IMG/VR virus record: IMGVR_UViG_3300020020_000092
Coordinates: 1-41,285 of that record
Reading direction: 5' to 3' (one strand)
Length of the DNA stretch: 41,285 nucleotides
Source of the DNA: a virus
The notes beneath the pieces were generated by a model. That model did not search any database. It had not been told where the DNA came from and saw only the letters and a list, made by a program, of their open reading frames with translations. Below are positions 2,298-17,157 of the stretch, piece after piece. Each line of letters begins with the position of its first letter. Position 1 is the stretch's first letter. The translations under genes and the position numbers were made by a program.

Positions 2298-2951
2298 ATG
2301 ACTGCCCGCGTGGCCAAAAAGCTCGCCAAGCGAAAGGTGAAGCCCCCACTCCCGGGCACGAAGCCGGGATCCTGTGGTGCGCCTCGGAATTCGCCCGAGC
2401 ATCGCGGGGAACCCTGTCGTCGTGCTGCCGGCTACCGTACCGGGCACCCGGGACAGGGCCGGTGTTCGTTACATGGGGGTCAGGCCACCGACCGTTTCGT
2501 GAGCCACGGCATCTACTCCATGGTGACGCATCATCGCGTCTCCGAAGTGTTGCAGCGACTGTCCGAGCAGGAGATGAACGTCATGGATTTGATTCCCGAG
2601 GCAAACGTGCTTCGGGCGTTGACCATCGACTTCATCAATCGCTACGATCAGTTTCAAGACGCACTGATGGCGTGGTATGCCGATCCCGAGTCCAACACGC
2701 GTCCGCGCAAGGTCGTGGACCTGGCGGATGCCTCTCACTTGATTGAATCGATTTCTCGCGTCGTCCATCGGATGCACCAGATCCAGAATGAAGGCGCGAT
2801 TTCACTCGAGACGTTCAAGCGCGTCACCGAGCACATGGGGATCATCGTCGCCAAGTACACGAAAGACCCCGTGGTGCTGCAGAAGATTGAAGACGAATGG
2901 ATGGACCTGGCCCTGGATGCCAAGTCCGCCCCACCCACCCCTGTTGAATAG
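2298..2951 (+). CDS. Small-terminase-like protein with zinc-binding HGG motif
   Basis: Residues 26-61 hold a Cys/His motif (C26, C40, H50, C56, H59) ending in GRCSLHGG. It follows the pattern G-x-P-C-R-x-A-x-G...HPG-x-G-R-C-x-x-HGG that I know from many phage proteins annotated as small terminase subunits or terminase-associated. The rest (residues ~75-205) is mostly helical, as expected for an oligomeric DNA-recognition subunit. A strong AGGAGGG site precedes ATG 2298. Against the assignment, the large terminase lies 7.7 kb downstream instead of adjacent. A general zinc-binding phage protein is the alternative. Confidence 0.5.
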   Translation: MTARVAKKLAKRKVKPPLPGTKPGSCGAPRNSPEHRGEPCRRAAGYRTGHPGQGRCSLHGGQATDRFVSHGIYSMVTHHRVSEVLQRLSEQEMNVMDLIPEANVLRALTIDFINRYDQFQDALMAWYADPESNTRPRKVVDLADASHLIESISRVVHRMHQIQNEGAISLETFKRVTEHMGIIVAKYTKDPVVLQKIEDEWMDLALDAKSAPPTPVE

Positions 2952-2966
2952 CGAGGACATGACATC

Positions 2967-3605
2967 ATGGCGAAAGCAAAGACGAAGGAAGCCGTTACCC
3001 AGGCCCGTGCCGCCCGCAGCCACGACGAGCACGAAGCTCGTAAAAAGGCCAACGCGCCGGTCGAAAAGGCGCGCGAGGTCCGCAAGGCTCACATCGACGA
3101 AGCGACCAAGGCCGAACGGCAGAAGCAGGTCGATCTCCTGGCCGAGGACGACAAGGCCGACAAGAAGGACAAGGAGAAGGTGACGCTGCACGACGGCAAG
3201 CCCGGATCCGGCGCGGGACTCCGCCCGGGGCAGCTGCACGCGCCCAAGTCCAACCCCGGTGCCGCCGCACGCGTGCCGTCGCAGCCGTTGCAGCCCGAGT
3301 CGCTGCAGTCGCACGGCCTGGGCATCCTCTACGACAAGGATCTGGACAACCCCCCCTACGACACCGGCGATCCGCTGGAAACCGACGAGGGGCCGAGCGG
3401 CTCGAATCCGGGCGTCGTGGACAAGGATGCCGAGCGGAAAAAGGCCGAGAAGGCCTCGCCCCGCTTCAAGCAGAACGATCCCGACAATCCGACCATCGGT
3501 GCGGGTGGGCGCAAGGACGCCACCGCCAGCCCGGACCCCATCGGCTCGCGCACGAAAAGCAAGAACAGCGTCGCCGGGGGCAGCAACTCGGGCATCGACG
3601 TCTAG
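2967..3605 (+). CDS. Charged low-complexity protein, 212 aa
   Basis: Residues 1-72 are almost all A/K/E/D/R and predicted helical or coiled coil. The rest is Gly/Pro/Asp/Ser-rich and probably disordered, with DNPPYDTGDP and repeated DPDNP/DPIGS patches. There is no signal peptide, no hydrophobic core and no catalytic motif. It could be a scaffold-like or internal virion protein, but nothing in the sequence proves this. It starts 15 nt after the previous stop with a modest GAGGAC site. Confidence 0.55.
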   Translation: MAKAKTKEAVTQARAARSHDEHEARKKANAPVEKAREVRKAHIDEATKAERQKQVDLLAEDDKADKKDKEKVTLHDGKPGSGAGLRPGQLHAPKSNPGAAARVPSQPLQPESLQSHGLGILYDKDLDNPPYDTGDPLETDEGPSGSNPGVVDKDAERKKAEKASPRFKQNDPDNPTIGAGGRKDATASPDPIGSRTKSKNSVAGGSNSGIDV

Positions 3606-3620
3606 TCTCCCTCGGGCTGC

Positions 3621-3655
3621 GGCCGTTCACCTCCAGCAATGGCGGGTGGACGGCC
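3621..3655 (+). other. RNA hairpin in intergenic gap
   Basis: An 11-bp stem (GGCCGTTCACC with GGTGGACGGCC, one G-T wobble) encloses a 13-nt loop in the 84-nt gap after the charged protein. No U-tract follows, so it is not a standard intrinsic terminator. It may be a processing or mRNA-stabilising element. Confidence 0.3.
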
Positions 3656-3689
3656 GAATCGCCGTTGGATTTACAGATAAGGAGCTGAC

Positions 3690-3995
3690 ATGCAGATGAT
3701 AGGCGTCGCATCAGTCAATGGCCACCGTGTGGAGTTGACACTGGACATTCATGAGGATGATGCCCCGTCGTTGGGGCAGGGTCGTGCTGACGAACGGCTT
3801 CGTGTGTGGATTCAGGCCGAAGCACAGCGGGCAGCGGAAATCGTCGCCGTCGCGTGTAAGGACCGAGTCGAAGAAGACCGGGCACGCACCGAACGCAAGA
3901 GGAATCCCCCCAAGGGCAAACGTGGACCGGACCAGATCGCGTTCGCCGGATCGAAAGAACCGGCCGTGGTCGTGCCGAAAGCGAAGGAGCAGTAG
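3690..3995 (+). CDS. Hypothetical protein, 101 aa
   Basis: It starts at ATG 3690 behind TAAGGAG. The N-terminus (IGVASVNGHRVELTLDI) looks like two beta strands, residues 35-70 are a charged helix rich in A/E/R, and the C-terminus is a lysine/proline-rich disordered tail. No family is recognised. It lies directly before a conserved phage structural-type gene (3-nt gap), which suggests a virion-assembly role by context only. Confidence 0.55.
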   Translation: MQMIGVASVNGHRVELTLDIHEDDAPSLGQGRADERLRVWIQAEAQRAAEIVAVACKDRVEEDRARTERKRNPPKGKRGPDQIAFAGSKEPAVVVPKAKEQ

Positions 3996-3998
3996 TTC

Positions 3999-4442
3999 AT
4001 GGCCAACCTCATGTACAACATTGGCAAGGTCCGGCTCCTGGGCGGAGCGACCTCGGCCATCAACTACGCATCGGACACCATCAAGGCGATGGCCGTGGGC
4101 TCGGGCTATTCGCCCAACGCCGATGACCAGTTCATTGACGCGGGTGGTGCGAACGATCCCGTCGATCACCGGACAGCGGCGACGACAGACCAGACGCTGG
4201 CCAACAAAGTCATTGGCGTCGATACGACGGGCGACTTCGCCTACATCGACGCGGACGATGTGGTCTACACCTCGGTGACGGCGGGACCGGCCATCGAGGG
4301 CATCGTCATCTACAAGGATACGGGCACGCCGACGACCTGTCCGATGATCTGCTACTTGGACATTTCGGTGACGCCGAACGGCGGCAACATCACCATCCAG
4401 TTCGCAGCCCCCGCCAGCGGCGGGATTGCGAAGATGACGTAA
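3999..4442 (+). CDS. Conserved phage virion-associated protein, 147 aa
   Basis: It has the layout of a small protein often seen among phage tail and fibre genes: MANLMYNIGKVRLLGG at the start, a DTIKAMAVGSGY strand, the central DADDVVYTSVTAGPAIEGIV and IVIYKDTG, then VTPNGGNITIQF near the end. The family is beta-rich and generally left unnamed in phage annotations. A role in the virion, probably tail-tip or fibre-associated, is inferred from that recurrence and from its neighbours. No signal peptide. Confidence 0.6.
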   Translation: MANLMYNIGKVRLLGGATSAINYASDTIKAMAVGSGYSPNADDQFIDAGGANDPVDHRTAATTDQTLANKVIGVDTTGDFAYIDADDVVYTSVTAGPAIEGIVIYKDTGTPTTCPMICYLDISVTPNGGNITIQFAAPASGGIAKMT

Positions 4443-4465
4443 CTCGGTTCAATAAGGAGCGAACG

Positions 4466-4993
4466 ATGCAAACGCGACTGTTGTTGGGCATGCTGATCCT
4501 GTGCGGGATGGCTGCCTGTGCCCGTAACCCCAAGCCAACCCCGACACCCACGCCGGTGCAGTCAGCATCGATTGAAATAGAAGCCGAGGCCCTCCCTCGG
4601 CTTCCTTACGTCCCCGCCCCGACCCAGACGCCCCGTCGAGCCACGGCCCCGCTGACCGCTGGAGAGACGGCCCGGGCCAATGATTCGATCATTTGGGACT
4701 ATGCCCCTGGGGAGCTTGCTCTTTTTGGTGTCGTGCGGTTCGAGGTGTGTGTCGAGGATCCTGGGTCGCTCTCCTGTTTACAGGTGACTCCGGATGCGTC
4801 GCGGACAGCGCTTCAACCAGATACGACGCCAGGAATGGAGTCGTTTGCCATGAAACTGCCGGCGTTGACAGTCGGGGCACACGTCATGTCCGTGAAAGCA
4901 TGCGCTTTAAGTGAATGCTCGGATGTGACCACGACTTCGTTTAACTTCTTGGTCAAACCAAAACCCCCCTCTAAAGTCCGTATCGGGCGGTAA
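4466..4993 (+). CDS. Putative lipoprotein with an Ig/FN3-like domain
   Basis: Residues 1-18 (MQTRLLLGMLILCGMAAC) form a type II signal peptide, with C18 as the probable lipidated cysteine; the -3 residue is Met, a tolerated deviation. A proline/threonine linker follows (PKPTPTPTPV). Residues ~75-165 carry alternating strands with cysteines (FEVCVED, LSCLQV, VKACALSECSD) resembling an Ig or FN3-type fold. TAAGGAG lies 8 nt before ATG 4466. A phage lipoprotein could mediate superinfection exclusion or act as a lysogenic-conversion factor; that is inference. Confidence 0.65.
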   Translation: MQTRLLLGMLILCGMAACARNPKPTPTPTPVQSASIEIEAEALPRLPYVPAPTQTPRRATAPLTAGETARANDSIIWDYAPGELALFGVVRFEVCVEDPGSLSCLQVTPDASRTALQPDTTPGMESFAMKLPALTVGAHVMSVKACALSECSDVTTTSFNFLVKPKPPSKVRIGR

Positions 4994-5017
4994 AGGTCAA
5001 CATGTCCATGACCTGAA

Positions 5018-5836
5018 ATGGGCTCACAAGCTTTCACATCGTCGGGCACCTGGCAAGCGCCGACTGGTGTCACTGCTGTCACGGCCGAATGTGTGGGCGG
5101 TGGTGGCGCTGGCGGCGCAGCTACGGGGAACCCTGCCCGGGGTGGCGGGGGAGCAGGAGGTCAATACTCCAAGAAAGCCGCCATCGCGGTTACGCCTGGT
5201 AACAATTACACAGTCACAATTGGCGCAGGTGGCACTTCGACGGCTGGTGCCGTCGGGCCAGGTGGGGACAGTTGGTTCTCGACATCTGGTACAGTCATTG
5301 CCAAAGGGGGTGCGGGTGGAGCACTGTCCACAGGCACGTCCTCAGCAGGTGGGGCCGGAAGTACCACTGGCGGGATCGGTGATACCGTCCGTGCTGGCGG
5401 GTCAGGAGCCGCAGGGACCGCAGGTGGCATTTCAGGAGGTGGCGGCGGCGGGGCGTCCGCGACCACAGGAGGCAGTAACGGTTCCACAGGGACGGGCGGT
5501 GCTGCCGGGACCGGCGCGTTTGCGGATGGTCTAACCTATGCGGGGGCAGGAGCCAACGGCGTCAACACCAATAACGCTGGCACTGCCGGCAATGTTCGAG
5601 GGGGCGGAGGGTCAGGTGGGGCCACGGCCCAGGCAGCAGATCGACTCGGCGGCGGCGGTGGCGCGGGTATTGTTGTTCTGACGTGGACGGATCCGCCGCA
5701 AACCGCGACCCCTACGGCGGCAACGGCTGTGTGGTCCGTGGGTACGCCCACAACACTTGTCAGTTCCTCCAATGTCACTCACCTTCATCTGCGCATGACG
5801 CGCCGTCGCACACCGTATAAGAGGAGACGTTTGTAA
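5018..5836 (+). CDS. Glycine-rich adhesin-like tail protein
   Basis: The N-terminus (FTSSGTWQAPTGVTAVTAECVGGGG) matches the glycine-rich domain common in phage tail fibres and adhesins, where poly-glycine strands form a receptor-binding sandwich. Residues 25-220 hold many Gly runs of 3-7. The C-terminal stretch (PTAATAVWSVGTPTTLV) is one copy of the W-x-x-x-T-P repeat that makes up the large repeat protein 2.6 kb downstream. No good ribosome site precedes ATG 5018; an AAAGG site fits a four-codon leader (5002-5016) that ends one base before this start, so re-initiation is possible. Confidence 0.65.
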   Translation: MGSQAFTSSGTWQAPTGVTAVTAECVGGGGAGGAATGNPARGGGGAGGQYSKKAAIAVTPGNNYTVTIGAGGTSTAGAVGPGGDSWFSTSGTVIAKGGAGGALSTGTSSAGGAGSTTGGIGDTVRAGGSGAAGTAGGISGGGGGGASATTGGSNGSTGTGGAAGTGAFADGLTYAGAGANGVNTNNAGTAGNVRGGGGSGGATAQAADRLGGGGGAGIVVLTWTDPPQTATPTAATAVWSVGTPTTLVSSSNVTHLHLRMTRRRTPYKRRRL

Positions 5837-6282
5837 TGGCTAATATTGGAGTCACGGTCACGACCGAAGGCGAGATCGCTTTGGGTGCGGGTACTGCCAA
5901 GACAATTCTGCAGATTATCGCTCCCGCAAATCAACGATTGAACTTTGACGGGTTCGCCGTCTCATTCGATGGTGTATTGGGCACGGCCGAGCCGGTCAAT
6001 GTCGAAATCTTGCGCCAGACAACTGCCGGCACGATGACCTCTGCAACGGTCGTACGGCGGGGCGCTGGTTCCGAGACGATTCAAACCACAGCACAAAAGA
6101 CCGCGTCCGCCGAGCCGACTGCCGGAGATGTGTTGCGCCGGTACAACATTCATCCCCAGACAGGGGCAGAATTCAAGTTCGACCCCAAGGAAATCGAGAT
6201 TCCTGGTGGTACGCGTCTGGCCATTCGTTGCACGGCCCCTGCTGCTGTCAATGTCACGGCGTTCATGGACGCCACGGAGTAG
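5836..6282 (+). CDS. Conserved phage structural protein, 148 aa
   Basis: It starts at ATG 5836 in a TAATG overlap with the previous stop. The protein is beta-rich, with PANQRLNFDGFAVSFDG, a polar middle, then YNIHPQTGAEFKF and EIEIPGGTRLAIRCTAPAAV near the C-terminus. This pattern recurs in uncharacterised phage virion proteins encoded beside fibres. No catalytic motif or signal peptide. A small accessory virion component is the most likely role; evidence is family resemblance and context. Confidence 0.6.
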   Translation: MANIGVTVTTEGEIALGAGTAKTILQIIAPANQRLNFDGFAVSFDGVLGTAEPVNVEILRQTTAGTMTSATVVRRGAGSETIQTTAQKTASAEPTAGDVLRRYNIHPQTGAEFKFDPKEIEIPGGTRLAIRCTAPAAVNVTAFMDATE

Positions 6283-6285
6283 ATC

Positions 6286-6603
6286 ATGCCCAATACGAAT
6301 CCGCAAGCGATCAGAGTTGCTAACGAGAAAATTCGCGTCGCGGCCGACAAGTTCGGCCAATTGTTCAATTTCATGAAAGCGTTGCAAGCTGAAGCCCAAG
6401 CCGAAGGATGGGTGGCGCTCTTCCCCAACGATGCGGAGCCTGTCGTCGATGGTGCGGTTACGGACGGGCGCACCGTCATCACGAACGCTGACGTTGCTGC
6501 GTTCATTACGCTGGCCGGTGCCTATATCACGTTCATGGAGCAGAGCGCGAACGCGAATCGCAACCTTGCACTGAAAATCGCTGTTAACCCCGAGCGGTTC
6601 TAA
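6286..6603 (+). CDS. Small helical phage protein, 105 aa
   Basis: It begins 3 nt after the preceding stop. Mostly helical: residues 5-42 and 66-95 are amphipathic, separated by a PNDAEPVVDGAVTDGRT turn region. Not recognised. Tight coupling to the virion protein before and the beta-helix protein after suggests an assembly or structural partner of the fibre block. Confidence 0.55.
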   Translation: MPNTNPQAIRVANEKIRVAADKFGQLFNFMKALQAEAQAEGWVALFPNDAEPVVDGAVTDGRTVITNADVAAFITLAGAYITFMEQSANANRNLALKIAVNPERF

Positions 6604-6606
6604 GCC

Positions 6607-7587
6607 GTGGCGACCTATTACGTCGATGGTGCGCTCGGGAACGACAGCAACGCGGGCACCTCGCCAGGCGGTGGCAACGCGTGGGCGACCCTCAGCAAGG
6701 TGGTGACGACGCTGGTGGACGGGGACATCGCCTACGTCAAGGCATCGGCGGTCTACTCCATCAGCGCGGCACTGGCCCCGACCCAAGGCACGTGGGCAGG
6801 CCCCAAGCGCATCATCGGCTACACCTCCACCATTACCGATCTTGGTCGCCCTACGATTCAAGCCACCGCCGGATCGTTCTCGATGTTTTCGTCTGGAGCT
6901 TACGGCGGCTGGTGTTTCGAGAATTTTATTATCGACGGGAACAACCAGACCTCGATTCGTGGGCTGGAGTTCGTCAACTACGGCAACGTCGCTCGTAATT
7001 GCAAGGTGATGAACTGCACGAATTACGGCATCTACGCGCACACCGAGGCACACTCCATCATCGGCTGCGAAGTCACCGGGTGTTCGGGTCAGCCTGCTGT
7101 GCTTGCCCTCTACGGCTGCCCGATTTACGGCTGCTACATCCACGGCAACTCGGCTGGCGGCGCCATCCTCGGTTACTTGGCGGGCATCATCCGTTCGATT
7201 ATCCAAGACAACACCGGCATCGGCGTTGAAGTCGCCAACACAGGAGGGCTTGTCATCGGCTGCTCGATCTACGACAATTCGAGTGACGGGATCAAGATGA
7301 CCAACTTCTGGTTGATGGGGGCAATCCTCAACAACATCATCGTTAGTAACGGAGGTTATGGGCTCAATGCTCCTGGTTTGGCGGTAGGCGTGTCCGACCC
7401 TCGCGTGGACTATAACGCGTTTTTCAACAACTCTTCGGGAGAGCGGAACATCGTCCTCGCAGGGCCGCACGACATATCGCTGAGCGGCATTCCGTTCACG
7501 AACGCCGGAGCGGGAGACTTCACCCTTAACAACACCCTCGGCGCTGGAGCCGCATGTCGAGGCGCAGGCTTCCCCGGTATGATCTAA
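6607..7587 (+). CDS. Right-handed beta-helix protein (tailspike-like), 3' end displaced
   Basis: GTG start 3 nt after the previous gene. The N-terminus YYVDGALGNDSNAGTSPGGG...WATLSK is the usual opening of phage and bacterial parallel beta-helix proteins. Residues ~90-290 show repeating rungs with Asn/Gly/Cys turns (IDGNNQTSIRGLEF, CKVMNCTNYGI, NSAGGAIL, DNSSDGIKMTN). Such proteins bind or cleave surface polysaccharides. The expected terminal motif G-Y-x-DIGALQH is missing because the frame stops at TAA 7585-7587; it appears at once in the next ORF. A short indel has probably split the original end. Confidence 0.7.
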   Translation: MATYYVDGALGNDSNAGTSPGGGNAWATLSKVVTTLVDGDIAYVKASAVYSISAALAPTQGTWAGPKRIIGYTSTITDLGRPTIQATAGSFSMFSSGAYGGWCFENFIIDGNNQTSIRGLEFVNYGNVARNCKVMNCTNYGIYAHTEAHSIIGCEVTGCSGQPAVLALYGCPIYGCYIHGNSAGGAILGYLAGIIRSIIQDNTGIGVEVANTGGLVIGCSIYDNSSDGIKMTNFWLMGAILNNIIVSNGGYGLNAPGLAVGVSDPRVDYNAFFNNSSGERNIVLAGPHDISLSGIPFTNAGAGDFTLNNTLGAGAACRGAGFPGMI

Positions 7588-7594
7588 GATGATC
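7579..7594 (+). repeat. ATGATC duplication creating the gene boundary
   Basis: ATGATC occurs twice (7579-7584 and 7589-7594) separated by TAAG. The first copy ends the beta-helix frame; the second contains the ATG of the next ORF. Removing the 10 bases 7579-7588 would join the frames as FPGMIGYLDIGALQHR, the normal ending of this family. Confidence 0.6.
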
Positions 7595-8362
7595 GGCTAC
7601 CTGGACATCGGCGCACTGCAACACCGGAACGGGCCACAGAGCGCCAACACCGGCTACCTGGACATCGGGGCGCTGCAGCATCGCTCGCGCCTCCGCATCG
7701 TCTCCCGCGTACAAGGTGGAGCCTCGGCCTCCGCCACCTCCGTGGACTCGCCCGTGCAAGCGCATAGTGCAGGCGGACTGCTGGTCGTGCTGCTGACCTG
7801 GTCCGATAGCGCTCCAACCATCAGTACCGTCACTGACCTGGCCGGAAACGCCTACGAACAAGCCGGGACGACCGTTACGCAAGAGGGCAACAAATATGCG
7901 ATCTATTTCAAGGCCAACTGTCTCGGTCATGCCGCCAACGTCGTCACCGTGGCGTGGTCGGGGAGCGTGGCCTACCGGAGCATCGTCGTACTCGAGATAG
8001 CCGGAGACTTCAGCAACACCGGAAGCGCTCTCACTGACACAGCAACCGGCACCGCGATTGGCGGCACCTCCATCGCCTCCGGCACGCTGACGCTGGCGGA
8101 CGACGAGGAAATTATCGTCGCCATCATGGTCGCCAGTCCGACGATCACTGGGGCTGGTGGGTTCTCCCTGACCAACTTCGCCGTCACGGGCGACGCGTCG
8201 AAGTATTTCGCGGACGAATACCAGATCGTTACGGTGGACATGGCGGCACAGGCAACCATCTCGCTGTCGGCCGCGTGGGGCATTCTCGCCGCGTCGTTCC
8301 GTGAGCCCGGAGCGGCACCGTTTTTTGGCGCGGTTATGGCGCGTTGGAGGGCTTGGCGATGA
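7589..8362 (+). CDS. Tail-associated protein with tandem GYLDIGALQHR motif and a beta domain
   Basis: Starts at ATG 7589, one base after the upstream stop. Residues 3-13 and 22-32 are two exact copies of GYLDIGALQHR, normally a beta-helix C-terminal signature. Residues ~42-240 form a beta-sandwich-like domain (DLAGNAYEQAG, GHAANVVTVAW, IVVLEIAG, WGILAASF) clearly homologous to residues ~288-486 of the large S74 fibre at 28638. The same module is therefore used in two fibre-region proteins. It was probably the C-terminal part of a longer beta-helix protein. A carbohydrate-binding role is likely but unproven. Confidence 0.65.
   Translation: MIGYLDIGALQHRNGPQSANTGYLDIGALQHRSRLRIVSRVQGGASASATSVDSPVQAHSAGGLLVVLLTWSDSAPTISTVTDLAGNAYEQAGTTVTQEGNKYAIYFKANCLGHAANVVTVAWSGSVAYRSIVVLEIAGDFSNTGSALTDTATGTAIGGTSIASGTLTLADDEEIIVAIMVASPTITGAGGFSLTNFAVTGDASKYFADEYQIVTVDMAAQATISLSAAWGILAASFREPGAAPFFGAVMARWRAWR
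7595..7684 (+). repeat. Direct repeat encoding GYLDIGALQHR twice
   Basis: Two 33-nt units (7595-7627 and 7652-7684) encode the same 11 residues. They differ only at scattered third positions (for example GGCGCACTGCAACAC against GGGGCGCTGCAGCAT). Synonymous divergence with a fixed peptide means selection has kept the peptide since the duplication. Confidence 0.8.
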
Positions 8363-9876
8363 AGCTGTGGGGACCGCCAGTCTTTCTTCCAGGAACAGGG
8401 GATCAGACCAGTTCCGCAACAGCGGTGACGGCTACCTGGGCTCCTACAACGCCTACCGTTGTACCCGGAGCGGTGTCGGTTACGGCCACAGCCGTCAGTG
8501 CGGCATGGTCCGTTATCGCACCGACTGCGGTTCCTGGAGCTGTCTCAGCTCCAGCTACGGCTGCATCTGGTGTATGGGCGGTTGTTACACCAACTATTCT
8601 GACGGGCGGTACCGCTCCAGCTACGGCTGCGTTCAGTGTATGGACCCCGATTACGCCGACAGTGGTTCCGGGGGCGACGATAAGTGTCGCTACCGCTGCT
8701 ACGGTTGCGTGGTCTCCGGTCACGCCGACGATCATTACAACACATACCGTGGTAGCGACCGCTGCAGCGGTTGTGTGGAGTTCGGTCACGCCGACTATTG
8801 TGCCCGGGGCCACGTCGATTCTTGCCGCTTCAGCCACGGCAACGTGGACGGGGGGTATTCCGACGGTTGTACCGGGTTCCACGGTTGCCGTTCTAAGCGC
8901 CTTAGTTGCGATATGGGCCGTTCTTACCCCCGTGGTGGTGCCCGGGGCCGTTTCGACGGCCGCAAATGCCGCCACGGGCACGTGGAGTGCCTCGACACCA
9001 ACGATCTCGACCGTTGTTTCTGTTAGTGCGACGGCGGCGACAGCCGTTTGGTCTCCAGTTACGCCTTCGGTCAGTTCCGCAGGCAGCACCAACCCTGCAG
9101 CAGCATTGGTGACGTGGACACCCGTCACACCCACGGTAGTTCCTGGCGGGGCCATAACTGCTGCCACGGCCTCGACAGCGGCGTGGTCCGTGATGACACC
9201 CACAGTAATAGCCGTTATTACGATAGCAGCAACAGCGGTATCCGTTGCCTGGGCCATTTCGACCCCGACGGTTATTCCAGGTGTGGCATCGCGCACAGCC
9301 GTAGCTACCACGGCGGTGTGGTCTGTGGTGGCGCCTACTGTTTCGGCCACGATCACGATTGTCGCTACGTCCGTTATAGCGACATGGACGCCGACAACGC
9401 CAACGGCCATTCCTGGTACGGTGGCAGTTTCGGCTACGGCTGCAACCGCTGCCTGGGTTCCGGTGACGCCAACAGTAACGGGCGGGGCCGCAGTACAGCC
9501 TGGAGCAGCAACTGCCTTATGGCAAGTCATTGCCCCGATTGTCACGTCTACGGTAACGCATGTAGCAACGGCTTCGACGGCGACGTGGGCGGCGGTGACG
9601 CCGACAGTTTTGACGGTGACGGTGGTGTTGGGCACTCCGGCACTGGGATTCTGGTCAGTTCAGACGCCTGTCATTGTCACGGGACCAATCAGTATCGATA
9701 CGACTCCGGCTCTGGCGGTGTGGACGGTTGGCGCGACGTCTACGCTGGTTGGGGAGTTGATTCTGGACCCGGGACGGTCCTTGCGCGTGTTGTTGGAAAC
9801 GCGAGTGCTGTCGGTGCGAAAGGAAATCAGGGTTTTGAAAGTTAAATCGGACATTCGTTCGTTGGAGGTGGACTGA
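8359..9876 (+). CDS. Long repeat protein of ~20 W-x-x-x-T-P-T units
   Basis: ATG 8359 (ATGA overlap, GGAGGG site) gives 505 aa; a TTG at 8344 is less likely. After a short head (MKLWGPPVFLPGTGD) the protein is a run of about 20 units of 22-23 residues, consensus A-x-A-x-W-x-x-x-T-P-T-V-x-P-G-A-x-S. Units are rich in Ala/Val/Thr with one Trp each and almost no charge. A charged tail of ~50 residues follows (LDPGRSLRVLLETRV onward). The pattern suggests a beta-repeat stalk or fibre. One further unit ends the glycine-rich adhesin at 5018. No known family is recognised. Confidence 0.7.
   Translation: MKLWGPPVFLPGTGDQTSSATAVTATWAPTTPTVVPGAVSVTATAVSAAWSVIAPTAVPGAVSAPATAASGVWAVVTPTILTGGTAPATAAFSVWTPITPTVVPGATISVATAATVAWSPVTPTIITTHTVVATAAAVVWSSVTPTIVPGATSILAASATATWTGGIPTVVPGSTVAVLSALVAIWAVLTPVVVPGAVSTAANAATGTWSASTPTISTVVSVSATAATAVWSPVTPSVSSAGSTNPAAALVTWTPVTPTVVPGGAITAATASTAAWSVMTPTVIAVITIAATAVSVAWAISTPTVIPGVASRTAVATTAVWSVVAPTVSATITIVATSVIATWTPTTPTAIPGTVAVSATAATAAWVPVTPTVTGGAAVQPGAATALWQVIAPIVTSTVTHVATASTATWAAVTPTVLTVTVVLGTPALGFWSVQTPVIVTGPISIDTTPALAVWTVGATSTLVGELILDPGRSLRVLLETRVLSVRKEIRVLKVKSDIRSLEVD
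8400..9750 (+). repeat. Tandem ~66-69-bp coding repeat array
   Basis: The DNA of the W-x-x-x-T-P-T protein is an array of about 20 diverged units 66-69 bp long. Conservation is at protein level: codons for A, W, T, P and V differ freely between units. Because of the composition, two other frames and the opposite strand stay open for hundreds of codons; these are shadows. Confidence 0.75.
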
Positions 9877-10686: not shown

Positions 10687-12294
10687 ATGCGGACATTAGG
10701 CCACATCTTAAAAGCCGGAGTCATCCGGCCCCCGCGCCCGGGGACATTGGATATGTCCTCGGCCCGGGCGGGAATTCGTGCGGCCAGCCCGACGTCGGTC
10801 AAAAATCAGCGGATTGCTCGGTGTGAGCATGATTCGGAAGAATTCGCTCGCACCTATCTGAGCCGGCATTTTGACAAACCCTTCTGCGAATTGCATCGCT
10901 ATGTGTTCGGGCGTATCGACGCCGTGTCCCCACCCGAGGGGAAACGCGACGCCCTGATCGCCCCACGTAAGTTTGGCAAGACCACACAAATCAATCTGGC
11001 GCTTCCGCTCCAGGCATTGGCCTACCAGCGAAAGCGATTCGTGTTGTTGATTGGGGAGTCATCGGGTGCCGCTGAAGGCAACCTGGCGACCATCGTGCAG
11101 GAACTGGAGACCAACGACTTATTGTTGGAAGATTTCCCGCACTTGAAACCGGCTGTCGATCCCAAAGGCCAGATGGTCAAGTGGACCGACCGCCAGATCG
11201 TGTTGAAGAATCACGCGACCGTCATGGCCAAGGGTTTGGGTAGCCGGATGCGCGGCGTGAAGTATCGGCATTCCCGTCCGGACCTGGCGATTATCGACGA
11301 TCCGGAATCGCCCGAAACCGCCGATACGTTCTTGAAACGGCGTCGGCACAAGCGGTGGTTCGGCGGCACGTTCCTGGGGTTGGGGGCGACAGGGTGGGAC
11401 ATTTTCGTGATCGGTAACTTACCACATCATGATGCGTTGATCGCGGGACTGGTCAATTCGAAAGAATGGATTGGCAAGATGTTCCGGGCCATCAACATCC
11501 CGAAACGTCAGGACGACCGCTATCCCATCGGCAATACCAAGACAGATGGCACCCCATTGTGGCCCGAGGGATGGCCGATTGAAGCATTAGAGGCGTATAA
11601 ACGTCAACCAGAAGTTGGTGGGCTTGGGTTTGCGCGGGAAATGATGAATGACCCGCGCGAGGAAGAAGACAAGCCGTTCAACCCGTTGACGTTTACCACG
11701 TTTGAGTACACACCCGAGCATCGGAAGTTGTTCGTGACGACGGCCTCGGCCGTGGATCCGGCGGGGGGCACGAACCCGGGCGAATATAAGAAAGGGATCC
11801 GCGACTGGTGCGTCATCGTGTCAGCGGGACGCACCCGCGATGGCTTCATCGATATCTTCGACGTCGAGATGACCAAATTGCCTCCAGATAATCAAATCGA
11901 ATTGTTGCTGGATGTGTATTCCCGTCATCGGACCCGGAAGATCGGGGTCGAAGAAGTCATGTTCAAGAATCTGTACAAGCCGAGTATTACCAAGGCCGCA
12001 CGGCGGCGGTTGCTGTATCCGACGGTCGTAGTGTTAAAATCGCCCAAGGTGAACAAGCAGACGCGTATCCTGGGCATGCAACCGCTGATCATGGACGAGC
12101 CCCGAGTGGTACGATTCGCCAAGCACCTATTCGAGAAGGTGCCGTTGTATTTCGCACAGTTTGATGAGTTCCCGATGACGTTCGACGATGGCCCGGATGC
12201 CACGGAGATGTTAGTTCGGATGTTGGAAAAGGGTGGCACCAAATCCTTCCCGCAAGGTGTGGGTGGGACAAGTTACTGGAAGAGGTCCGCATGA
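10687..12294 (+). CDS. terL: Terminase large subunit
   Basis: DNA-packaging motor: ATPase plus nuclease that fills the prohead and cuts concatemers. The ATPase domain has a variant Walker A, APRKFGKT (92-99), the GSRMRG element (185-190), Walker B DLAIIDD (199-205) and the coupling-type VIGNLPHHD (~241-249). The RNase-H-like nuclease shows its acidic residues at D357 (AVDPAGG), E422/E423 (VEEVMFKNLY) and the DDGPDATEM cluster (500-508). The length of 535 aa is normal. The stop overlaps the portal start (ATGA). The small-subunit candidate is 7.7 kb upstream instead of next door. Confidence 0.95.
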   Translation: MRTLGHILKAGVIRPPRPGTLDMSSARAGIRAASPTSVKNQRIARCEHDSEEFARTYLSRHFDKPFCELHRYVFGRIDAVSPPEGKRDALIAPRKFGKTTQINLALPLQALAYQRKRFVLLIGESSGAAEGNLATIVQELETNDLLLEDFPHLKPAVDPKGQMVKWTDRQIVLKNHATVMAKGLGSRMRGVKYRHSRPDLAIIDDPESPETADTFLKRRRHKRWFGGTFLGLGATGWDIFVIGNLPHHDALIAGLVNSKEWIGKMFRAINIPKRQDDRYPIGNTKTDGTPLWPEGWPIEALEAYKRQPEVGGLGFAREMMNDPREEEDKPFNPLTFTTFEYTPEHRKLFVTTASAVDPAGGTNPGEYKKGIRDWCVIVSAGRTRDGFIDIFDVEMTKLPPDNQIELLLDVYSRHRTRKIGVEEVMFKNLYKPSITKAARRRLLYPTVVVLKSPKVNKQTRILGMQPLIMDEPRVVRFAKHLFEKVPLYFAQFDEFPMTFDDGPDATEMLVRMLEKGGTKSFPQGVGGTSYWKRSA

Positions 12295-13817
12295 AGGCAC
12301 GTATCGCACGCGCCCGTCCGTTGGGGTATGCCAACTTTGGCGAAATCGGCCGAAGCGGTCTGAACCTGTGGGGCGGGGAGATTCGAGAGGAATTCCTTCG
12401 GGAACTCAAAGGTAAGGAATGGCGGAAAATCATCAAGGAGATGAAGGACAACGACCCGATTATCGGGTCGATGCTGTTCGCCGTCTCGATGTTGATTCGC
12501 CAAGCCAAGCCGACGATGAAACCGGCCATAGAGCCGAAGACCACGACGGTTACGACGAAGAAGGGGAAGCGATTCCGGTTGATCAAAGCCACCCCGGATT
12601 CGACGGCCGCGAAAGAGTCAGCGGACTTCGTACAGTCATGTTTCGATGATATGTCTGAGACGTGGGCCGATACGGTGACGGAAATCCTGACCATGTTGCC
12701 TTACGGGTGGGCCTGGCTGGAGACGGTCTACAAACGCCGTGGGGGGCCGTCCCGTGATCCGTCGCAGAATTCGCGGTTCACGGATGGGAAGATTGGCTGG
12801 CGGAAATTGCCGCTGCGGTCGCAGGACAGCTTGAAAAAGTGGGTCATTGACGACACCGGCGGCATTCAGGCCATGATCCAGCAGGTGAAAACGGACCAGG
12901 GTGGAAGCGAGGAAATCACCATCCCGATTCAGAAATCGTTGTTGTTCCGGACCGAGCATCACAAGAACAATCCCGAAGGGAAATCCACCCTTCGGAATTC
13001 GTACCGCCCCTATCATTTCAAGAAGCGCATCGAGGAAATCGAAGGCATCGGCATTGAACGTGATCTGGCCGGGTTGCCGGTCATGATCGCGCCCGAGGGC
13101 ATGGATCTGTGGAATACGAACGATGCGCTGGCCACGCAAGCCCGATCCGAAGCCGAGACAATTGTCCGGTCCATCCGCCGTGACGAACAGGAAGGCGTGT
13201 TGTTGCCGTTCGGGTGGGAACTGACATTGCTGGCGTCGTCGGGCAAACGTAACTTCGACACGACGGAAGTCATCGGCCGCTACAACAACTCGATTGCGAT
13301 GACGATGTTGGCCGACTTCATCATCCTGGGTCACAACAATCGATACGGTTCGTTCGCGCTCTCCTCCAGCAAAACGCACATGTTTGCGGTGGCGCTGGGC
13401 GGGTGGTTGGAGTCCATCGCGTCGGTCTTCAACCGCTATGCCATTCCCCGGCTGTTGGAATTGAATGGCATGGATACCGAGCACCCGCCGATCATGGTGT
13501 TCGAGGATATCGAACTGCCGGACCTGGCGGAACTGGGCACTTACATGTTGAACCTGTCGAAGGCCGGGTTCCAGATGTTCCCGAATATTCCGTTGGAGAA
13601 ACGGTTGATGCAAGCGGCCAGCATGCCGATTGAAGACATGGAGTTCGGACGTGAGCCGAAGCCCGTCGATGGAACCGAAGAACCAAAACCCAGGAGCGCA
13701 TCTGATGTCACCCCCAAACCATCGGCTGGTCGTCCCAAGCCCACGGCCACAAAGAAGAACCGCGAAGATCGTAGCCGCTATCGTGGCCGAGCTCGAGTCT
13801 CGGAGGAACAGTCTTGA
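12291..13817 (+). CDS. Portal protein (Mu gp29/DUF935-like)
   Basis: Forms the dodecameric ring through which DNA enters the capsid and to which connectors bind. The pattern NDPIIGSMLFAVSMLIRQ near residues 54-71, the W-rich LPYGWAWLETVYKRR (~136-150), IPIQKSLLFRTEHHKNNPEGKS and the FKKRIEEIEGIGIERDLAGLPV helix match portal proteins of the DUF935-like group. 508 aa is a normal size. The last ~60 residues are Pro/Lys/Arg-rich, low complexity, and overlap another reading frame. Translationally coupled to terL. Confidence 0.85.
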   Translation: MKARIARARPLGYANFGEIGRSGLNLWGGEIREEFLRELKGKEWRKIIKEMKDNDPIIGSMLFAVSMLIRQAKPTMKPAIEPKTTTVTTKKGKRFRLIKATPDSTAAKESADFVQSCFDDMSETWADTVTEILTMLPYGWAWLETVYKRRGGPSRDPSQNSRFTDGKIGWRKLPLRSQDSLKKWVIDDTGGIQAMIQQVKTDQGGSEEITIPIQKSLLFRTEHHKNNPEGKSTLRNSYRPYHFKKRIEEIEGIGIERDLAGLPVMIAPEGMDLWNTNDALATQARSEAETIVRSIRRDEQEGVLLPFGWELTLLASSGKRNFDTTEVIGRYNNSIAMTMLADFIILGHNNRYGSFALSSSKTHMFAVALGGWLESIASVFNRYAIPRLLELNGMDTEHPPIMVFEDIELPDLAELGTYMLNLSKAGFQMFPNIPLEKRLMQAASMPIEDMEFGREPKPVDGTEEPKPRSASDVTPKPSAGRPKPTATKKNREDRSRYRGRARVSEEQS

Positions 13818-13935
13818 TGGTGATGACGACATGCGTTCTATCACTGTTACAGTCAAGATGATCCAGGGCACGGACGCGCCCCGGGCGGTCATCGTCAACG
13901 TGGAAAGTGAAAAAACCCTAAGCAATTCCGCATAG
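13705..13935 (+). CDS. Small protein overlapping the portal 3' end, 76 aa
   Basis: ATG 13705 has an AGGAG site 8 nt upstream and overlaps the portal gene by 113 nt in another frame; a shorter form from ATG 13831 (34 aa) is the alternative. The first 25 residues are Pro/Arg-rich, then a helix (TAKIVAAIVAELESRR) and a beta part (SITVTVKMIQG, PRAVIVNVES). The part after 13817 has no competing frame and good codon bias, so some product is likely made. Function unknown. Confidence 0.55.
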   Translation: MSPPNHRLVVPSPRPQRRTAKIVAAIVAELESRRNSLDGDDDMRSITVTVKMIQGTDAPRAVIVNVESEKTLSNSA

Positions 13936-13939
13936 GGTT
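13914..13939 (+). promoter_or_regulatory. Inverted repeat overlapping the -35 box (operator candidate)
   Basis: AACCCTA (13914-13920) and its exact complement TAGGGTT (13933-13939) are separated by 12 nt. The right arm shares its last two bases with the TTGACA -35 box, a usual place for a repressor-binding site. As RNA it could also fold as a hairpin closing the upstream operon, but no U-tract follows. Confidence 0.4.
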
Positions 13940-13966
13940 GACACCTTTCCCCCGGGGGCGTATTTT
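13938..13966 (+). promoter_or_regulatory. Sigma70-type promoter before the head genes
   Basis: TTGACA (13938-13943) matches the -35 consensus exactly, with a 17-nt spacer and TATTTT (13961-13966) as -10. Transcription would start near 13973. The upstream side is A-rich (GAAAAAACC). It is the best sigma70-like promoter I find in the window and points into the head operon. Confidence 0.7.
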
Positions 13967-13972
13967 AGATTA

Positions 13973-14076
13973 CGTGCAAGACGGGCCGGAACACCGGCCC
14001 AACAATTAAAAAGTTCGACCGTCAGAAGTGTGGAGGCGGCAGTCGGGTGAGATTCCCGGCTGCCGTCTTTTTTATT
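13973..14076 (+). ncRNA. Structured leader RNA or small RNA, ~104 nt
   Basis: Between a good promoter and a strong terminator lies a short structured RNA with no convincing ORF. Hairpin 1 is GGGCCGG-AACA-CCGGCCC (13983-14000), followed by an A-rich single-stranded part (14001-14016), a linker, and the terminator hairpin. The 5' segment AAGACGG (13978-13984) is exactly complementary to CCGTCTT (14063-14069), the 3' side of the terminator, so a mutually exclusive fold exists. This looks like an attenuator/antiterminator leader for the head genes, or an independent small RNA. No known riboswitch class is recognised. Confidence 0.55.
14033..14076 (+). terminator. Intrinsic terminator
   Basis: A 13-bp GC-rich stem (14035-14047 with 14055-14067, two G-U wobbles), 7-nt loop TGAGATT, then TTTTTTATT. 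A textbook Rho-independent terminator, placed 23 nt before the next gene and about 60 nt after the promoter, so it would stop most transcripts before the head operon unless overridden. Confidence 0.85.
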
Positions 14077-14099
14077 GTGCGGATGAAAGGAGAGACAAC

Positions 14100-14219
14100 A
14101 TGGCAAAGAGTCCGAGTCGTCCCGGTGCAAGTCCGAAGCCGCCGTCCGGTCCGGGAGGTGGAGGTCGTCCTGGCGGCGGTCGTCCGCCGTCGCGCCCGAC
14201 GCCCACGCCCAGCAGGTAG
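14100..14219 (+). CDS. Tiny Pro/Gly/Arg-rich protein, 39 aa
   Basis: ATG 14100 follows AAAGGAGAG with proper spacing. The product is low complexity (Pro, Gly, Arg, Ser), ending in RPTPTPSR, basic and disordered. It is the first gene after the attenuator-like leader and 2 nt from the XkdF-like gene, so it may act as a leader cistron or a nucleic-acid-binding tag. The ribosome site is strong, so translation is likely even though function is unknown. Confidence 0.5.
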   Translation: MAKSPSRPGASPKPPSGPGGGGRPGGGRPPSRPTPTPSR

Positions 14220-14221
14220 TC

Positions 14222-14674
14222 ATGTCCGCAGCCATTCGCATTCGGCAGGACGGCGACGATCTGCTGATTACGTTCGAGCGGACACGGCGCACCAAGATCG
14301 CCAAGTTGGACAGTGATCGCCAGATGGTGTTCGGCTGGGCGAATGTCTGCGTCCGGTGCTCGGGCGAGACGGTCGTGGATTCTCACGATGATACGATTGC
14401 TTCCGAGGATCTGGAATCCGCAGCCTACGAATTCAATCTGTCTTTCCGGGAAACCGGGGAGGAGCACGAGGGCGACGCCAAGGGTCGTTTGATTGAATCG
14501 TTTTTCGTCACCCCAGAAAAGCTCGAGAAGATGGGCTTGAAGAAGACCGCCCTCCCCCGTGGCTGGTGGGTCGGGTTCAAGATCGATGATCCCAAGGCGT
14601 GGCAACGCGTCAAGAAGGGTGATTTGCGGATGTTCTCCATTCAGGGAGTCGCACGCCGGGAGGTCGTGTCCTAA
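14222..14674 (+). CDS. XkdF-like putative prohead protease
   Basis: Similar in layout to the XkdF domain of PBSX-type phages, a putative serine protease acting in head maturation. Visible elements are RQMVFGWANVCVRCSGETVVDSHDDTI (residues ~34-60), GRLIESFFVTPEKLEKMGL (~88-107), LPRGWWVGFKIDD and the C-terminal DLRMFSIQGVARRE with the FSI-x-G serine context. 150 aa fits the domain. It is followed with 1-nt overlap by the acidic scaffold-like gene, the usual protease-scaffold pair. Confidence 0.75.
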   Translation: MSAAIRIRQDGDDLLITFERTRRTKIAKLDSDRQMVFGWANVCVRCSGETVVDSHDDTIASEDLESAAYEFNLSFRETGEEHEGDAKGRLIESFFVTPEKLEKMGLKKTALPRGWWVGFKIDDPKAWQRVKKGDLRMFSIQGVARREVVS

Positions 14675-16203: not shown

Positions 16204-17157
16204 ATGCCCCAGCCCACATCACAGGATGTGCATGTTGACGAGGTTCTGACGGATCTCGCCATCAGCTACATGCAGTCCCAGGATGTCTTCATTGCGACGA
16301 AAGTGTTCCCGATCATCACGGTCGGGAAGCAGTCCAATAAGTACATCGTATGGGACAAGAATGACTGGTTCCGTGACGAGGCGCAGAAGCGCGCCGACGC
16401 GACGGAATCGGCCGGCAGCGGCTACCGGCTGTCGCAGGACAGCTACTTCGCCGATGTCTGGGCGTTCCACAAGGACGTCGGTTCCCAGGCGCGAGCGAAC
16501 GCGGACGCCGGAATCAACCTGGACAGCGGAGCCGTGCGGTTCGTGGCGCGGAAGATCCTGCTTCGGCAGGAAATTCAGTGGGTCACGGATTTCTTCACGA
16601 CCGGCGTCTGGGCGGTCGATTACTCGGTGCCCGTGCAGTGGAACGACGTGACCTCGGATCCCATCGAGGATTTCGAGTCGCAGGTCGAGATCATGGTCAC
16701 GACCACCGGCTTCCGCCCCAACACGGCGGTCTTCGGCTACCGGGCCTTCCGGCGTCTGAAGAATCACCCGGACGTGCTGGCTCGCCTGTCGTACAACGGC
16801 GGCACGGCGATTCCGGCGCAGGTCACTCCGGCGATGATCGCCGCGATCCTGGGCCTGGAACGCGTGTTCGTCTCCCAGGCAATCAAGGCGACGAACGTCG
16901 AGGGCGAGACGTCGGCCTACTCGTTCACCCACGGCAATCACGTCTGGATGGGATACGTAAATCCCTCGCCGTCACGTGAGGAACCGTCGGCGGGGTACAT
17001 CTTCGCGTGGGACTACGCGGGATACAGCTCGACGGTGAGCGTGGATTCGTTCGAGATCCGCAAGACCAAGTCCACCCGTTACGAGGGTGAGGCTGCCTGG
17101 GATGGCAAGGTCACGGCGGCGGATCTGGGCGTGTTCATGCCCAACGTGGTCGCCTAA
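16204..17157 (+). CDS. Major capsid protein (HK97 fold)
   Basis: Shell subunit of the head. A 317-aa protein in the decoration/capsid position with a strong CGGAGGA site. Pattern elements of HK97-type capsid proteins are FIATKVFPIITVGKQSNKYIVWDK (N-arm/E-loop area), the helix RFVARKILLRQEIQWVTDFF, FRPNTAVFGYRAFRRLKNHPDV, ILGLERVFVSQA in the A-domain, and a strand-rich C-terminus. No fused protease: the separate XkdF-like gene would supply it. Confidence 0.8.
   Translation: MPQPTSQDVHVDEVLTDLAISYMQSQDVFIATKVFPIITVGKQSNKYIVWDKNDWFRDEAQKRADATESAGSGYRLSQDSYFADVWAFHKDVGSQARANADAGINLDSGAVRFVARKILLRQEIQWVTDFFTTGVWAVDYSVPVQWNDVTSDPIEDFESQVEIMVTTTGFRPNTAVFGYRAFRRLKNHPDVLARLSYNGGTAIPAQVTPAMIAAILGLERVFVSQAIKATNVEGETSAYSFTHGNHVWMGYVNPSPSREEPSAGYIFAWDYAGYSSTVSVDSFEIRKTKSTRYEGEAAWDGKVTAADLGVFMPNVVA

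Follow-up and report, generated by a model that had tools for sequence, protein, structure and literature searches.

A conserved 26-nt RNA element fused to an intrinsic terminator ahead of the head genes of uncultured phages: a candidate transcription attenuator

A conserved, uncatalogued (absent from Rfam 15) cis RNA element of 26 nt lies between the portal gene and an XkdF-like protease gene in a virus record from IMG/VR and its relatives. The window, meaning the whole stretch of DNA that was analysed, is this record of 41,285 bases. Across a broad group of uncultured phages the element keeps a constant position in the head operon, where it is joined to the 5' arm of an intrinsic terminator. 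It represents a candidate regulatory RNA family in which the conserved core that would choose between terminator and antiterminator is very small. We lean towards reading the cassette as a transcription attenuator, in which an antiterminator pseudoknot held by a factor would release transcription of the head genes. If so, the timing of packaging versus capsid gene expression would be set by antitermination, and a candidate protein partner is encoded next to the switch. The features of the window are as follows, with element positions 1-26 corresponding to 14014-14039.

10687-12294: large terminase gene, upstream of the portal gene
12291-13817: portal gene, upstream of the cassette
13705-13935, + strand: small gene for a 76-aa protein, out of frame with the portal gene and overlapping its 3' end
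13938-13966, + strand: promoter of the sigma-70 type, TTGACA-17-TATTTT, with a predicted start near 13973
13983-14000, + strand: leader hairpin, GGGCCGG-AACA-CCGGCCC, optional and not conserved
14014-14039, + strand: conserved 26-nt element, YUCGNCCGUCAGARGNGWGGAGRCGG, proposed H-type pseudoknot and antiterminator
14014-14016, + strand: 5' strand of helix S1, UUC (YUC, positions 1-3), pairing with GAA at 14025-14027 (GAR, 12-14)
14019-14023, + strand: 5' strand of helix S2, CCGUC (6-10), pairing with GGCGG at 14035-14039 (GRCGG, 22-26)
14033-14073, + strand: intrinsic terminator, stem 14033-14047/14055-14069, then T6
14222-14674, + strand: XkdF-like head maturation protease gene (Peptidase_S78_2, Pfam E 5e-19)
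after the protease gene: 322-aa protein in scaffold position
between the 322-aa protein and the major capsid protein: cement protein
16204-17157: major capsid protein

The cassette of promoter, short leader and intrinsic terminator sits between the portal and protease genes, the latter being the first recognisable head gene 3' of the switch. A promoter, a structured leader RNA of ~104 nt and a terminator before the head genes had been predicted, and all were located in the sequence. The promoter consists of a -35 box TTGACA (13938-13943), a 17-nt spacer and a -10 box TATTTT (13961-13966). It has 10/12 consensus matches and is the top match within 12 kb. The terminator stem contains 15-16 pairs including G-U pairs, and the T6 tract lies at 14068-14073. 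The 108-nt RNA folded at -49.8 kcal/mol with a z of -5.5 relative to shuffled sequences, mostly because it carries two GC-rich hairpins.

Initial queries of IMG/VR with the portal and scaffold proteins returned no relatives. Relatives in IMG/VR were obtained with a portal protein alignment plus the capsid protein. The closest relative, L008, has a portal protein 72% identical and a capsid protein 82% identical to those of the window, with a promoter and terminator in the equivalent place. Its leader resembles that of the window only in the last part, TTCGGCCGTCAGAAGCGTGGAGGCGGC plus the terminator. A search of the fetched loci that allowed mismatches recovered the element in lineages beyond L008. 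A pattern scan of the whole of IMG/VR with CCGTCAGANGNGNGGAGNCGG then gave 27 contigs. In 22/27, all beyond the window, YTCG precedes the pattern and a terminator-like hairpin is fused to it. The remaining 5/27 lack YTCG and the portal/protease setting and were rejected as background. In two further contigs (L014 and L015) the element has diverged to CUC-AAG-CCGUC-G-GAG-GUGAGAA-GACGG. Among the matches listed in three relaxed scans for alternative S1 or S2 sequences, the L014 type was the sole addition. Absence of conservation in related phages had been named in the original prediction as its refutation; conservation was found in the 22 further contigs and the two diverged ones.

Across 10 distinct forms, 17/26 columns of the element are invariant; conserved proteins are ~43-73% identical between lineages (~27-57% different). 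Exactly one copy was found in each of 17 records searched whole, and the reversed-pattern control gave zero. A leader peptide was rejected, as the variable positions (1, 5, 14, 16, 18 and 23) have no three-base rhythm. Neither the leader nor the element had a relevant match in a phage collection, and no account of the 26-nt element turned up in the open-access literature that was searched. A host search of 379 genomes of one phylum plus five single genomes also gave no match.

The element directly precedes a head gene in every member with enough sequence, and this gene is the XkdF-like protease in all members but two. In one exception, L252, the gene after the element (region 8491-9537, - strand) begins MHNWFRFTKSANVADVFIYDFIGDWIDDYWGFG and contains INSPGGD, which we take to indicate a ClpP-type prohead protease; the XkdF-like match is found slightly further on. 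In the other, L014, the gene after the element was not recognised. One member, L271, has several kilobases of extra genes between portal and element (2350-6981), yet its small gene, promoter, element and protease gene remain together despite the insertion. The inserted region, between the portal and small genes, includes a 927-aa repeat-rich protein.

Promoters of the form TTGAC[AG] plus a -10 box, scoring at least 8 and at most 130 nt upstream of the element, were identified in 9/11 lineages, 8 of them scoring at least 9. Random windows drawn from these loci reached scores of at least 9 in 2-14% of cases and of at least 8 in 9-36%. L264 and L014 have no scoring promoter upstream of the element. 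A stable terminator hairpin is found at the identical register in all members, with a weak U-tract in L257 and L271, and its upper stem shows many compensatory changes among members. Promoter and terminator exceed chance, and the pair recurs in relatives. While the distance from element to terminator is fixed, that from the promoter start to CCGUC varies from about +7 to +80, which indicates that the element works with the terminator and not with the promoter. The leader hairpin is missing in L008 and in the L009 group. In the latter the element starts within ~10 nt of the transcript start and the RNA scarcely exceeds the element plus terminator.

Two helices can be drawn within the element. 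S2, CCGUC:GRCGG, is pairable in 10/10 distinct forms. Its 3' strand doubles as the base of the 5' arm of the terminator, and because both structures need GRCGG, the S2 hairpin and the terminator are mutually exclusive. Position 23 is A or G and its terminator partner switches accordingly (U or C), while the S2 partner is a constant U that fits both. The one variable pair of S2 is thus U-G or U-A, with changes on one side only. S1 has 3 bp and crosses S2 as in an H-type pseudoknot, leaving loops GN, A and GNGWGGA. Covariation of the stems in homologous loci had been proposed as a check; a two-sided change was found in S1, at one pair, and in S2 none. At positions 1 and 14 of S1, a C-G to U-A double change occurs in 3/10 distinct rows (the window, L008 and L024). 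Because a well-supported split in the protein tree separates L024 from the window and L008, two independent origins of this double change are probable. A shuffle control reached the observed level of covariation in 3/500 trials. The covariation is suggestive of a pseudoknot helix, and the element probably forms an H-type pseudoknot. As S1 covaries at one pair and S2 never on both sides, the pairing is supported chiefly by fit and conservation.

Other pairings and repeats had been pointed out in the original prediction. The leader segment AAGACGG (13978-13984) is indeed exactly complementary to CCGTCTT in the terminator (14063-14069), but 8-11% of dinucleotide shuffles of the leader contain a match to the terminator arm of this length. 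This alternative fold is absent from L008 and is probably due to chance. A shorter match, CCGTC at 14019-14023, had been mentioned in passing, and it proved to be the significant one, as it is the 5' strand of S2. The idea of an attenuator or antitermination leader therefore held in kind, with a conserved and syntenic element, but not in the pairing first put forward, since AAGACGG is not conserved. The inverted repeat at the -35 box is present (AACCCTA 13914-13920/TAGGGTT 13933-13939) but not conserved. Its proposed role as an operator found no support, as it overlies the stop codon of the small gene and is not kept in L008.

In keeping with the earlier remark that no known riboswitch class was recognised, no family reached its gathering threshold in a scan of the window with Rfam 15. 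At E≤5 only sub-threshold antisense matches were obtained, SurC (19.6 versus 80 bits) and Guanidine-II (21.8 versus 32), and both identities were rejected because of the low scores and the opposite strand. The Guanidine-II match covers 14146-14191 on the - strand, antisense to a Gly/Pro-rich frame, and probably reflects chance. A tRNA-like fold was sought and none was found. Between the terminator and the protease gene, 14101-14219 holds a short Pro/Gly/Arg/Ser-rich frame (MAKSPSRPGASPKPPSGPGGGGRPGGG...). L008 has a similar low-complexity frame, and none was recognised in the remaining members.

The attenuator layout itself was observed: a promoter, leader and terminator precede the head genes, and a conserved alternative helix uses the terminator arm. 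Antitermination, the pseudoknot geometry and a stabilising factor are what we infer beyond this layout. The sigma-70 promoter immediately after the small gene would initiate a short RNA, which by default would end at the intrinsic terminator some 60-150 nt downstream. The S2 hairpin alone folds at -4.6 to -6.0 kcal/mol and the terminators at -24.6 to -35.2 kcal/mol (members with the whole hairpin folded; the L249 figure is excluded), hence the default state should be off. The element would fold as a CCGUC:GRCGG hairpin, probably an H-type pseudoknot with the YUC:GAR helix added. While the pseudoknot is held, the lower terminator stem could not close beside the U-tract, and polymerase would read through to transcribe the genes for protease, scaffold and capsid. 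Because the S2 hairpin is weak alone, a factor recognising the invariant bases would be required, and given how much more stable the terminator is, the switch would depend on kinetic trapping or on strong stabilisation. Conservation of bases that stay unpaired points to a binder keeping the antiterminator in place during emergence of the terminator 3' arm. This factor is most likely a phage protein. A point against the attenuator reading is that transcription from the portal region may also reach this terminator, which could then act simply as a 3' end.

The best candidate for the partner of the element is the product of the small gene. In nearly all relatives with the element a frame of ~70 aa likewise ends just upstream of the promoter. 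The small gene is present in 31/31 portal-bearing loci with the element (a redundant set), and in only 1/150 portal-bearing loci without the element within 1500 nt. This co-occurrence is partly a matter of shared ancestry. Upstream sequence is short in L252, where no copy of the gene was recognised, and missing altogether in L266. The lone locus with the small gene and without the element is L021 (region ~7500-7800), where a terminator-like hairpin and a promoter with TTGACA follow the gene, with no 26-nt element; this arrangement is a possible variant of the switch. The structure model of the small protein is a confident helix-helix-beta-hairpin (mean pLDDT 85), and comparison with Pfam, PDB, fold searches and the phage collection gave no match. 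More specifically, the ~70-aa protein might be a dedicated RNA-binding antiterminator that grips the 26-nt pseudoknot and so frees the genes for protease, scaffold and capsid for transcription, a tentative idea that we think more probably wrong than right. Under such a scheme the protein, made from the upstream packaging operon, would accumulate and then bind the pseudoknot. If true, tailed phages would have in this protein and the element a new, self-contained switch for the order of assembly.

Other explanations were considered. It is unlikely that the cassette makes a phage small RNA, a free transcript of 65-105 nt that uses its conserved part to bind an mRNA or a protein in trans. Nearly all members do have their own promoter and a strong terminator, and the L009 group makes hardly more than element plus terminator. 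On the other hand, the element is invariably on the same strand upstream of head genes and never elsewhere, its pairing ties conserved bases to the terminator arm, and the sole 12-nt complement elsewhere in the window targets the leader hairpin, which is not conserved. A conserved, promoter-proximal nascent RNA in a phage operon also recalls the mode of the HK022 put RNA (PMC9378689), in which case the folded element would bind RNA polymerase and enable it to resist this terminator and later ones with no dedicated protein involved. We judge this quite improbable, since put has ~70 nt and two stem-loops while the element has 26 nt and a 3' helix that consumes the terminator arm, and a constitutive antiterminator would hardly be expected to have a strong conserved terminator straight after it.

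The highly conserved unpaired GNGWGGA and the compact, pseudoknot-like layout would suit a metabolite or ion riboswitch, with the invariant loop bases as a small-ligand pocket stabilising the antiterminator. Within the searched data, however, the element occurs only before phage head genes and never before metabolic or transport genes, and with no match in Rfam either, the chance of this seems slight. The slimmest chance is given to a plain terminator next to a site in DNA or RNA that is conserved for 3' end formation, packaging or protein binding, with no switching. The terminator is the strongest feature, and the terminase and portal genes are nearby. A DNA site does not explain the fixed overlap with the terminator arm, and the C-G/U-A double change together with the wobble-compatible U in S2 point to RNA base pairing.

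The proposed attenuator resembles several known systems. In LicT/SacY-type antitermination, a conserved hairpin stabilised by a protein overlaps the 5' arm of a terminator and excludes it, upstream of sugar genes. The element hairpin likewise overlaps the 5' arm and excludes the terminator, and its weak fold needs a binder, but its sequence differs, it is probably a pseudoknot, and it precedes phage head genes instead of sugar genes. An H-type pseudoknot bound by a phage protein is found in the T4 gene 32 leader, where it acts on gene 32 translation; the element, probably also an H-type pseudoknot in a phage leader, is proposed to act on a terminator. The HK022 put RNA works in cis, with polymerase as its target and an effect that extends to remote terminators (PMC9378689). 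By analogy both may be conserved nascent RNAs 3' of a phage promoter linked to antitermination, though in size and layout the element is unlike put and it overlaps one terminator. In the Caulobacter gene transfer agent, antitermination by GafYZ helps to activate the head-tail cluster through a palindromic DNA site at the promoter, and a conserved RNA element is not reported in that work (PMC11150451); common to both would be antitermination, inferred here, that switches on a head gene cluster. Lambdoid Q at the late promoter pR' depends on a DNA site lying between the -35 and -10 boxes (PMC6606751). The arrangement of promoter, short leader and terminator ahead of late genes is similar, but here the spacer is not conserved among lineages, as judged by inspection, and the conserved part is the RNA adjacent to the terminator.
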